Notes under the pieces: generated by a model
Told to the model about the DNA's origin: nothing
What the model saw: the letters and a program-made list of their open reading frames with translations, nothing else
The model's database searches: none
From: Chloroflexota bacterium
GTDB taxonomy: Bacteria > Chloroflexota > Anaerolineae > Aggregatilineales > Phototrophicaceae
Length of the DNA stretch: 64,000 bases
Direction: 5' to 3'
NCBI GenBank assembly: GCA_016223085.1
Contig: JACRPS010000003.1
Coordinates: forward strand, 1,174,274-1,238,273
Shown here: positions 24,129 through 29,731 of the stretch, piece after piece
Layout of the letters: each line of letters opens with the position of its first letter
Position numbering within the stretch: position 1 is the stretch's first letter
Translations under genes and position numbers: made by a program

Positions 24129-24572
24129 TTACCCCATCGTCGCCAGATAATCATTCAGATATTGCTGCACCTCGGCCTCGTCGAGAAAGCCGAACCAGCG
24201 CTGCACGATGTTACCCTGCGCATCCACCAGCGCGTACTGCGACCGCTGCACCAGGTTAAACTGCTGGCGGATGCCAAGCGTTTCCGGTTTATCAATATCG
24301 AGCTTGATGAAATCCACGCGATCACCGAACTGCTGGGCCAGCCCATCCACGATGGGGGCATTGCGCTGGCAGGTCGTTCACCAGTGGGCGAAGGAGTCGA
24401 GGAACTGGGGGCGTCCGGTCTGGCCGACCAGTGTGATGTCTTCTGTCGGTTGGGTTGACGCGCCCGCGTTTGTATCGGGCGCTGGAGAGACCGTTGGGGT
24501 AGCGGTCGCTGCCCCGCAGGCTGCCAGCAGCCCGACCAACGCGATTAACAGTAAACGCCAGACCGTTTGCAA
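24129..24572 (-). CDS. thioredoxin-like lipoprotein with in-frame TGA at the CxxC: candidate selenoprotein
   Basis: Two collinear frames on the minus strand are separated only by one TGA (24380-24378). Before it are a lipoprotein signal (LLLIALVGLLAAC, lipobox Cys19) and a Thr/Pro linker, then GRPQFLDSFAHW. After it are TTCQRNAPIVDGLAQQFGD, VDFIKLDIDKPETLGI and QRSQYALVDAQGNIVQRWFG. Aligned on the fold, the TGA (codon 65) replaces the first Cys of the CxxC active site, giving U-T-T-C. A hairpin matching bacterial SECIS rules follows. Both sides are in the same frame and no other lesion is present, so selenocysteine insertion fits better than decay, but a simple nonsense mutation is possible. 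Start: TTG at 24572 with GAGG eight bases upstream; the frame is open to 24722. The mature protein should be membrane-tethered outside, as a thiol oxidoreductase. Confidence 0.65.
24337..24370 (-). promoter_or_regulatory. candidate bacterial SECIS element
   Basis: Directly after the TGA, nucleotides +8 to +12 (GCCAG) pair with +37 to +41 (CTGGC). Nucleotides +22 to +27 (CCCATC) pair with +31 to +36 (GATGGG), leaving a GTG apical loop whose first base is 28 nt from the TGA. Known bacterial SECIS elements have a small apical loop with a G among its first bases, about 16-37 nt after UGA, so this fits. Its folding has not been computed. Confidence 0.5.
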
Positions 24573-24733
24573 CCGATTTGCCTCAATCCAGAAAAACAGT
24601 AAGAAGTGAAAAAACAGTAGACGGTGAAACGCCAACTGCATCTTTTCTACCGGATTTTTTGTACGGTGAGATGAATGGAAGATTGGTATTTGATGAAAGT
24701 GGCGCGGTTGCCGGAGGTTCATACCTCTGACGA

Positions 24734-26786: not shown

Positions 26787-27775
26787 ATGTCCCGCAAATG
26801 GTGTTTGTTGCTGCTGGTGATTCTGCTGGCGGTTGCTGCGCCGGTCGCCGCGCAGGAAACGCGCCCGGTTATCGTGGATACCGATATGGTGACGGACGAC
26901 TGGATGGCGATTCTGCTGATCTTAAACGACCCGGCTTTTTCAGTGAAGGCGATCACCGTGACGGGCACGGGCTTCGCGTACTGTGATGCCGGTGTAGAGG
27001 TGGCGCTGGGACTGCTGGCCCTGACCGGCTACGGCGACGTGCCGGTAAGCTGCTGGACAGAAAAACCCCTGATGGGTGACAACGCCCCACCAGCGGAATG
27101 GAGAACCAGCATGGAAACGGTCGAAGCGCTGGGTTTACCGGCAGGTGGCGAACCGGCAGAGCAGAATGCAGTCGAACTGTTCACGGCAACGGTGGAAAAC
27201 TCACCGGAGCCGATCACCGTGCTGGCGCTGGGGCCACTGACCAACGTCGGCGCGGCGCTGGGGCCAAGCCGGCGCTGGTAGACAAGATCGAGATGATTTA
27301 TGTCATGGGCGGCGCGGTGGACGTGCCCGGATCGGGCGTTAGCGACGAGAACACCACCGCCGAATGGAACATCTACTGCGACCCGCACGCGGCGCGGCTG
27401 GTGTTTGAGTCCGGCGCGCCGATTACGCTCGTGCCGCTGGATGCCACCAACGATGTGCCGGTGACAGTAGAGTTTATGCAGAAGCTGGAAGCCAGCCAGA
27501 CTACACCGGAAGCGCAGTTTGTGTACAAAGCCCTGTCCGGCAATATGGGATCCATCGAGTCCGGCGGCTACTATTTCTGGGACCCGCTGGCCGCTGCCGT
27601 GATGGTGGACGAAAGCCTCGTCACGCTGACGCCCCGCGAGGTGACGGTAGTGGATACCCCCGGCGCGGACAATGGCCGCACCAAGCCGGTGGGCAACGGG
27701 CCGGAAATCCGCGTCGCGACCGCGCCCGACGGTGCAGCGTTTGAACAGTTGTTTATTGAGGGGCTGAATCGATAG
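26787..27775 (+). pseudogene. secreted inosine/uridine-type nucleoside hydrolase, frameshifted
   Basis: The first frame has a signal peptide (KWCLLLLVILLAVAAPVAAQ) and the metal-binding IVDTDMVTDDWMAILLIL, the DxDxxxDD motif of IUNH enzymes, then PITVLALGPLTNVGAAL. It hits TAG at about 27281. One base away the second frame carries on: KIEMIYVMGGAVDVPGSG, AEWNIYCDPHAARLVFES, ITLVPLDATNDVP and FWDPLAAAVM. Restoring one G to the GGGG run near 27262 yields a complete ~329-residue hydrolase that would cleave ribonucleosides outside the cell. AAAGGAG six bases before ATG 26787 fixes the start. The stop codon touches a palindromic repeat. Confidence 0.78.
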
Positions 27776-27851: not shown

Positions 27852-29174
27852 CTAACTCCCCGCCGGCTGGCTGACCTGCTCCTGCGACTGGATGCCCAGC
27901 AGCACGGCGCTCAACTGCGCCTGGCGCGCCAGATCACGGCAGTCGGCCAGCACGCGCGCCGCTTCCTGCGGGCTGTGGAAGCCGGTGCTGTTTTCCGACG
28001 AGATAAAGTCCCAGCGCATCTGGGCGACGCGATGAAGCTGCCGCGCTTCCGCCAACTGTTCGTCGGTCGCGCCTGCTGCCTTCGCCGCCACAATCGCGTC
28101 CATCGCATCCAGCAGCGCCGCTTCGCTGGCGTGCAGCAGTTCAGCGGTTTTATTCTGGATATCCACCACGCGGTTGTAGAGTTCGTCTTCGTCCACGTTG
28201 TGGCACGTCTGGCACGACGCGCTGATGTTCTTCAGCGGGCTGCGCAGCCAGTGGTCGCTGACCTTGACACTGCCGACGCGGGTGTATGGCATGTGGCAGT
28301 CGGCGCAGGCCACGCCGGAACGGGCATGGATGCCGGTGGTGTACAGCTCGTATTCCGGGTGCTGCATCTTCAGCATCGGCGCGCCGGTTTCCGCATGGTC
28401 CCAGTCCTTGAAGCCGATTTCGGTGTAATAGGCTTCGATGCTGTCAATCGTCAGACCCTTGTCCCAGGGGAAGGTGAGGACTTTGTTATCGCCGGCGAAG
28501 TAATATTCCACGTGGCACTGGGCGCAGACATACGTCCGCATCTCCTGGCGCGTCGCTTTGGTTACGTCAATGCCGCGCTCGGCCATTGCGTTGACAAAGG
28601 CCGGGCGTGTCAGGCGCAGTTCCATCGTCTGGGGGTCGTGGCAGTCGTTGCAGGACGTGCCGGTGTGCAGGTTCTCTTTCAGTTCGTTGTAGGGCGTGCG
28701 GTTAAATGCTTCCCAGCCCATTTCCTTAATCAGCACCGGCGCTTCGGCAGCATGGCAGTTGGCGCACGCGCCCGGCTGTTCCTTCACGACAATGCGCTGC
28801 GTCTCAAGCTGGTCCTGCAGCATGTAGTAGTGCCCGCGCTCCTCGTTGTGGTCCTTGCTGAAGGCGTAGCCGGCCCACAGCCGCACCATCGCCGGCGTCC
28901 GTTCCAACTTGCTGTAGGGTTCGCTGCCACCGTAAGGCGTCGCGCCGCTGTTCTCGGCGGTGCGCTGGAACATCTCGTACTGCACCGGGAAGTTCTGCCC
29001 CCACACGGCGGGGTCAATGGTATCTTCCGGGATTTCAACCACTTTCAGCGGCGACTGTTTCGCTTCCGCCTGCCGTTCGCTGATGTTTACCAGCAGCGCC
29101 GCCACGCCGGCGGTCAGCACCACCGCGCCAACGAAGATGATAACGTAAATGAGCAACTGTCGTGTTCTGGTCAT
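27852..29174 (-). CDS. nrfA: ammonia-forming cytochrome c nitrite reductase, catalytic subunit
   Basis: A 440-residue pentaheme enzyme reducing nitrite to ammonium outside the membrane. Five heme sites are readable: CANCH (137-141), CNDCH (175-179), CAQCH (217-221), CADCH (290-294) and CQTCH (321-325). Catalytic Tyr224 lies in CHVEYYF and His272 in KMQHPEYE; RLWAGYAFSKD holds the active-site region. The first, catalytic heme uses CxxCH instead of the classical CxxCK, a variant known from some NrfA lineages. An uncleaved N-terminal helix (LLIYVIIFVGAVVLTAGVAAL) may anchor it. It follows nrfH by 74 bases in the order crp/fnr-nrfH-nrfA. Confidence 0.94.
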   Translation of the reverse strand: MTRTRQLLIYVIIFVGAVVLTAGVAALLVNISERQAEAKQSPLKVVEIPEDTIDPAVWGQNFPVQYEMFQRTAENSGATPYGGSEPYSKLERTPAMVRLWAGYAFSKDHNEERGHYYMLQDQLETQRIVVKEQPGACANCHAAEAPVLIKEMGWEAFNRTPYNELKENLHTGTSCNDCHDPQTMELRLTRPAFVNAMAERGIDVTKATRQEMRTYVCAQCHVEYYFAGDNKVLTFPWDKGLTIDSIEAYYTEIGFKDWDHAETGAPMLKMQHPEYELYTTGIHARSGVACADCHMPYTRVGSVKVSDHWLRSPLKNISASCQTCHNVDEDELYNRVVDIQNKTAELLHASEAALLDAMDAIVAAKAAGATDEQLAEARQLHRVAQMRWDFISSENSTGFHSPQEAARVLADCRDLARQAQLSAVLLGIQSQEQVSQPAGS

Positions 29175-29202
29175 AAGCGATTCCCCCTTTGAAAACAGCC
29201 TG

Positions 29203-29252
29203 TCACCAGTAGCTGGCAGTTTTTTGGCTACTGGCTACGAGCTACCAGTTAT
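29203..29252. repeat. degenerate 7-bp-type repeats between nrfH and nrfA
   Basis: Words such as ccagtag, ctggcag, ctactgg, ctaccagt in both orientations; the same family as at 19237 and 42936. Confidence 0.5.
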
Positions 29253-29731
29253 GGCAGATTGCGATTCTCATGGCCGACGTTGCCATGACACTCCACGCAG
29301 CGGCGTGTCTGGTCGTCGTGATAGCCGTAGACCTGGCTCACCAGCCCGGCATGGCAGTTGATGCAGTTACCCTGCACGATGTCCGCGTTGAAGTCCTTCG
29401 CGTGGATCGTCGCCGGGTAATCGCCGGTGGTGAAGGCCAGACTGTGATTAAACCCGTTAAGCGCCTTGGTCGTCCACTTGCCGATAAAATCGTGCGGCAT
29501 GTGGCAGTCGTTGCACACGGCCACGTTTTTGTGGCTGCCCCGGTTCCAGGCATCGAACTGGTCGCGCATGATGTGGCAGTTGACACAGGCGTAAGGGTCG
29601 TCCGAAAGGTAAGCGGTGCCTTTGGCATACGTCAGGGTAAATACGCCCAACCCGAACAGCACGCCCAGCGCCAGCGCGACCGCGCCGCCGAAAAAGAGCG
29701 GGCTTGATCGGGAACGGACCAACCGCAGCAT
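29249..29731 (-). CDS. nrfH: cytochrome c nitrite reductase small subunit
   Basis: A 160-residue NapC/NirT-family tetraheme quinol dehydrogenase that passes electrons from the quinol pool to NrfA. One N-terminal membrane helix (LFFGGAVALALGVLFGLGVF) is followed by four heme sites: CVNCH, CNDCH, CINCH and CVECH. CVNCHIMRDQFDAWNRGSH is the characteristic first-heme region. The start MLRLVRSRSS is preferred because GGAGGG lies seven bases upstream; an in-frame start 11 codons earlier has no such site. It is preceded by an FNR-like box. Confidence 0.93.
   Translation of the reverse strand: MLRLVRSRSSPLFFGGAVALALGVLFGLGVFTLTYAKGTAYLSDDPYACVNCHIMRDQFDAWNRGSHKNVAVCNDCHMPHDFIGKWTTKALNGFNHSLAFTTGDYPATIHAKDFNADIVQGNCINCHAGLVSQVYGYHDDQTRRCVECHGNVGHENRNLP

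Follow-up and report, generated by a model that had tools for sequence, protein, structure and literature searches.

We identified a gene on the minus strand, at positions 24572–24129 of the 64,000-nucleotide stretch of Chloroflexota DNA analyzed here (the window), whose in-frame UGA codon is very probably decoded as selenocysteine (Sec). Read with its homologues, the gene starts at TTG, ends at a TAA stop (24131–24129) and encodes 147 residues, with Sec as residue 65 (TGA at 24380–24378). The product is predicted, from a structure model and sequence patterns, to be a lipid-anchored lipoprotein with a thioredoxin fold that lacks the usual cis-proline, and it probably serves a redox function in the cell envelope. 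The computational support comprises the equivalence of TGA and Cys codons among homologues, the presence of Sec machinery, a covarying hairpin behind the TGA, selection on the downstream part of the gene and the predicted fold; from these we infer decoding in vivo, cell-envelope location and redox activity.

The frame from 24572 to 24129 contains a single internal stop, the TGA at 24380–24378, and thioredoxin-like sequence flanks it on either side, as an earlier sequence-only reading of two frames parted only by this codon had described. The TGA occupies the first position of a UxxC redox motif, W-U-T-T-C, in which the resolving cysteine, Cys68, is encoded by TGC at 24371–24369. A GAGG sequence at 24584–24581, 8 nt 5′ of the TTG start, may act as the ribosome-binding site. 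The N-terminus (24572–24516) has the pattern of a lipoprotein signal peptide, a hydrophobic stretch followed by the lipobox LAAC with Cys19 at 24518–24516, and 22 of 30 homologues have a strict lipobox pattern 5′ of the redox motif. A linker rich in Thr, Pro and Ala connects this signal to the thioredoxin domain.

Most of the thioredoxin-fold domain extends from Sec to the C-terminus (24380–24132), as judged by Pfam and the structure model. The read-through product matches the Pfam Thioredoxin family (PF00085) with 33.6 bits against a cut-off of 23.5. Its seven NCBIfam matches, none of them to a selenoprotein model, all fall under their cut-offs, including the thioredoxin equivalog TIGR01068 (46.3 bits against 96.8). 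An AlphaFold2 model based on the window protein together with six Cys homologues reached a mean pLDDT of 84.4, with values of at least 90 in every ten-residue block of residues 41–140, and its nearest solved structures in the PDB are thioredoxins. This seven-row model supersedes a poor fold of the single sequence without an alignment (pLDDT 48.3). A search of plasmids with the window protein returned four records at 28–32% identity, three of them annotated trxA.

To our knowledge, a cis-proline facing the redox motif is nearly universal in thioredoxins. In the alignment, the corresponding position of the window protein is Ser111 (24242–24240), and the same column holds Ser in 16 and Ala in 3 of the 19 rows of its clade. 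The remaining 11 rows of the family have Pro in this column, as do all 30 rows of a sister family with a UxxU motif, described below.

To place the TGA among relatives, we searched 61 genomes (the own genome and 60 others) at E 0.001. Matches occurred in all 61, mostly to ordinary thioredoxin-like proteins, and the best locus per genome was laid out and read for 30 genomes. The first motif position is TGA in 21 of these homologues, TGC in 5 and TGT in 4, which bears out the earlier placement of the TGA at the nucleophilic Cys; in one of the TGA rows (L035, genome G025), the second motif position is TGA as well. All nine relatives without TGA have Cys at the Sec column, and their frame runs on unbroken. 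Further matches were listed, some with TGA, for example in G051, G052 and G056. A wider search covered 301 genomes of the phylum, with 13 first-look candidates scored per genome, and gave matches at E 1e-18 in eight, namely the own genome and seven others of the same class. The seven new loci comprise five with TGA and a hairpin and two with Cys.

These comparisons bear on whether the TGA is a true stop, arising from a nonsense mutation or a sequencing error, in a pseudogene like the frame-shifted gene nearby. The neighboring nucleoside hydrolase does carry a frame change, so that the earlier remark on broken genes nearby holds for the one case examined. Against this reading, TGA stands at the same column in 20 other genomes, which makes a sequencing error untenable as its source, and the downstream frames of close TGA relatives are intact. 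The part of the gene behind the motif is under purifying selection (dN/dS 0.04–0.31 in the 11 pairs computed). Decay of the gene in relatives, raised earlier as a concern, is thus not what the intact, selected frames show, and with the covarying hairpin and the selA association described below, a pseudogene is extremely improbable.

The own genome (6.03 Mb in 37 contigs, with the window within contig C12) encodes the machinery for Sec decoding. A search for selA, selB, selD and tRNA-Sec, which the sequence-only reading had proposed, found all four: SelA (554.7 bits), SelB (373) and SelD (368) score above their cut-offs, and the tRNA-Sec match of 73 bits is also called tRNA-SeC, with anticodon tca, by ARAGORN. 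Another above-cut-off tRNA-Sec match in this genome (L002) is a tRNA-Ser according to ARAGORN. The SelD gene itself has an in-frame TGA, in SLAACAGU. SelB and tRNA-Sec were examined in the own genome and 13 relatives of the 61-genome set. Among the 13 relatives, only G012, G025 and G038 combine SelB above cut-off with an ARAGORN tRNA-SeC; the ten lacking both include eight Cys genomes without selA. The 11 above-cut-off tRNA-Sec matches in these relatives divide into three called tRNA-SeC by ARAGORN (68–75 bits) and eight called tRNA-Ser (47–57 bits).

The form of the gene follows the machinery. SelA scores above cut-off in 40 of the 61 genomes, and it is present in all 21 TGA genomes compared with one of nine Cys genomes (Fisher's p = 1.5e-6). 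The sole Cys genome with selA, G038, is a distant relative at the level of the order and has the full Sec machinery. Related genomes are not independent in Fisher's test; a count of independent contrasts on a tree of both families used the 47 of 60 rows with a known selA state. In the majority of draws, six contrasts favored the association, none opposed it and one was neutral; the median p was 0.03.

We also considered whether the UGA specifies a standard amino acid, through codon reassignment or general readthrough, with no involvement of selenium. In favor of this reading, the frame is open on either side of the TGA. However, TGA is the terminal stop of 6 of the 15 ORFs listed in the window and is therefore not a reassigned codon here, the nine relatives without TGA uniformly have Cys, and both the hairpin and selA track the TGA. 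Such decoding is accordingly very unlikely, and Sec remains the preferred reading of the codon.

Behind the TGA, at 24356–24342, lies a hairpin of the bacterial SECIS type, with a 6-bp stem (CCCATC/GATGGG) and a GTG loop; 27 nt separate the TGA from the loop, which begins at the 28th nucleotide, as noticed before. Its calculated energy is −11.5 kcal/mol. Published limits for bacterial SECIS elements, as given in the available portion of PMC13188914, are a loop of 3–9 nt, a stem of 4–16 bp, a G as the first or second nucleotide of the loop, a spacing of 16–37 nt and an energy of −7.5 kcal/mol or lower. We applied these values in our own implementation, and the window hairpin falls within them. 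The same limits are passed by 394 of the 1787 TGA triplets on both strands of the window (22%) and by 24% of the TGC and TGT triplets tried. At such a pass rate for TGA triplets, a hairpin seen in a single sequence says little, and it is covariation that carries weight.

The inner helix covaries among homologues. Across 20 distinct TGA rows, 95.8% of the cells in alignment columns 24–29 and 35–40 are paired, 16 cells have changed on both sides, and the G and T of the loop are invariant. The covariation score in TGA rows is 0.438 compared with 0.165 for shuffled alignments, with none of 500 shuffles as high and the best slid version at 0.125. In the nine Cys rows, only 44.4% of the cells of the same helix are paired and no cell has changed on both sides. 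Over seven codons, the hairpins of all 21 TGA rows are more stable than those of all nine Cys rows (U = 0, p = 2e-5). Compared with synonymous recodings of the same codons, 16 of 21 TGA rows fall within the lowest 5%, as does one of nine Cys rows (G037); the hairpin is not exceptional at this level in the other five TGA rows. The published limits are passed by 19 of 21 TGA rows versus one of nine Cys rows. The TGA rows that fail are G008 and G041, while G057 passes only through a different hairpin, as does the single Cys row, G009. An outer 5-bp stem that had been proposed earlier (24370–24366 with 24341–24337) is not conserved: 53% of its cells are paired, and its covariation of 0.176 hardly differs from the shuffled 0.166. 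A search of Rfam over 24200–24500 gave two weak lncRNA matches only, far under their gathering scores.

The loop of this hairpin also contains an in-frame GTG at 24350, which could serve as a start codon. The locus would then make a short lipoprotein that stops at the UGA and, as a second product, a protein comprising the thioredoxin half. This arrangement is highly improbable, as the GTG coincides with the hairpin loop, the second product would be without an active site, and the frame is continuous in Cys relatives. The earlier proposal of a UGA decoded as Sec therefore stands, supported by the machinery, the TGA/Cys column, the selA association and the covarying hairpin.

For the decoding and reaction we propose the following scheme. 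SelA would make Sec-tRNA and SelB would bring it to the ribosome. There, the short hairpin, a bacterial SECIS element that begins some 21 nt past the UGA, would cause this codon to be read as Sec, the nucleophile of the UxxC motif. In the cell envelope, the selenol of Sec65 would most likely attack disulfides or other oxidized sulfur species, and Cys68 would then resolve the mixed bond.

The own genome also encodes a paralogue outside the window (L084, C9:24383–24751, minus strand), a lipoprotein with the motif D-P-U-G-P-U, two in-frame TGAs and one SECIS-like hairpin. A second copy of a thioredoxin-like lipoprotein gene was listed in this genome at C29:210119–210469, with two TGAs. A search for this sister family in 151 genomes of the order at E 1e-12 gave matches in 33. 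Of 30 sister loci read, one per genome, 27 have UxxU, two UxxC and one CxxC, and the sole CxxC locus belongs to G003, a genome without selA. The sister hairpin lies at the same offset as that of the window family and covaries (0.246 compared with 0.115 shuffled, 0 of 500 shuffles as high). In the UxxU genes, the spacing from UGA to loop is 26–27 nt for the first codon and 17–18 nt for the second, the two UGAs being nine bases apart, and both spacings are within the published SECIS range. Measured from the first UGA, the SECIS limits are passed by 24 of 29 sister TGA rows, among them G006 with a different hairpin. An exception to the association with the machinery is G024, which has a UxxU gene (L092, C1:819076–819423) but no SelA or SelB above cut-off; its best tRNA-Sec match reaches 47.1 bits against a cut-off of 47, and ARAGORN calls it a tRNA-Ser. 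A recent loss or an assembly gap is a possible explanation. The UxxU sisters thus pose the question whether one bacterial SECIS is enough for two UGAs nine bases apart.

To follow the exchange of Sec and Cys, we built a tree of 60 rows from 99 columns, with the motif columns masked and the root placed between the two families; 17 of its 57 inner branches were drawn open. The minimum number of changes is eight, and with Sec at the root all eight are from Sec to Cys. Seven of them fall on lineages without detected selA: G016; G004, G009 and G015 together; G029; G037; G042; G044; and, among the sisters, G003. The remaining change is that of G038, a genome with selA. The first three, from the same family of genomes, are the safest, since the distant rows are possibly not orthologues. 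Rooting the tree with more distant Cys thioredoxins may give Cys as the deepest state.

Two Cys forms retain a hairpin. In G016 (L024, C26:34958–35413), a 5-bp stem and a GT loop persist behind the TGC, as expected for a recent replacement, and in G412 (L132, C11:33655–34062), a Cys form from the wider search, the hairpin is strong. These SECIS-like stems are possibly remnants; remnant structures in some Cys forms are described in the accessible parts of PMC1794560 and PMC13188914. The same portions of these two papers call replacement of Sec by Cys rare and mostly confined to FdhA and SelD. Taken jointly, our observations incline us to view the window gene and the UxxU lipoproteins as an envelope selenium redox system of the order. 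One SECIS would decode two UGAs to give a diselenide-type thioredoxin, and reversion to Cys would have occurred repeatedly, mostly where Sec decoding is gone, contrary to the view that such replacement is rare in bacteria outside FdhA and SelD.

Thioredoxin-like selenoproteins with UxxC are already known as a kind. Those of PF00085 are tabulated as experimentally verified in Table 1 of PMC13188914, and as far as the consulted part of that source describes them, they resemble the window protein in scoring above the PF00085 cut-off, in having Sec first in UxxC and in having a bacterial SECIS just behind the UGA. The window protein differs from them in its lipoprotein signal and lipobox, its low TIGR01068 score and the Ser or Ala that takes the place of the cis-Pro throughout the 19 rows of its clade. 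The same source, in the part available, lists other thioredoxin-fold disulfide-exchange selenoproteins with UxxC, thiol-disulfide isomerase-like proteins (cd02966), a family that may overlap with that of the window protein, and thiol:disulfide interchange proteins (PF13098), to which the window protein has no match at E 0.001. It also lists families alike in redox motif type, the Prx-like thiol:disulfide oxidoreductases (PF00578, UxxC/UxxU) and Redoxin (PF08534, UxxC). The window protein matches Redoxin weakly, with 23 bits, under the cut-off of 26.6, and no match to PF00578 was listed at E 0.001 for it or for four further proteins scanned. The envelope thiol-disulfide oxidoreductases TlpA, ResA and DsbE likewise have a membrane-anchored thioredoxin fold. 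The window protein shows weak NCBIfam matches to all three, but at 20.9–29.7 bits against cut-offs of 123–230.

The selenoprotein lists, as far as their accessible parts extend, include UxxC thioredoxins, and UxxU in Prx-like families, mercuric reductase and FmdB (PMC13188914, PMC9312934, PMC1794560, PMC2398784, PMC12013277). We did not find the lipoprotein subfamily or its UxxU sister described in the accessible parts of open-licence full texts on selenoproteins, UxxU, Chloroflexota/Anaerolineae, lipoproteins and SECIS elements; they may be known elsewhere. A standard gene caller would truncate the window gene at the UGA and take it for a broken one, and its correct reading reveals a selenoprotein subfamily, present in uncultured relatives, without any NCBIfam model above cut-off. 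The set of close relatives permits comparison of Sec and Cys forms, of intact and decayed SECIS elements and of kept and lost Sec machinery.

The conserved upstream neighbor on the same strand (25684–24848) encodes CofE, coenzyme F420-0:L-glutamate ligase (183.3 bits, cut-off 180.65). Of 11 regions compared, 7 have this gene next to the homologue, and the Cys genomes G015 and G016 retain it; it hints at nothing specific about function. Further along the window, the inosine-uridine nucleoside hydrolase gene (26787–27775) has its halves in different frames, the first stopping at about 27281 and the second carrying the profile on. A nitrite reductase pair follows at 27852–29728, with NrfH above cut-off and an NrfA-like cytochrome under its cut-offs. 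In other genomes, the loci L051 (G014:C5:173764–174045) and L052 (G011:C126:9109–9489) represent another candidate thioredoxin-like selenoprotein, with an N-terminal hydrophobic stretch and the motifs NYULAC and QYULGC.
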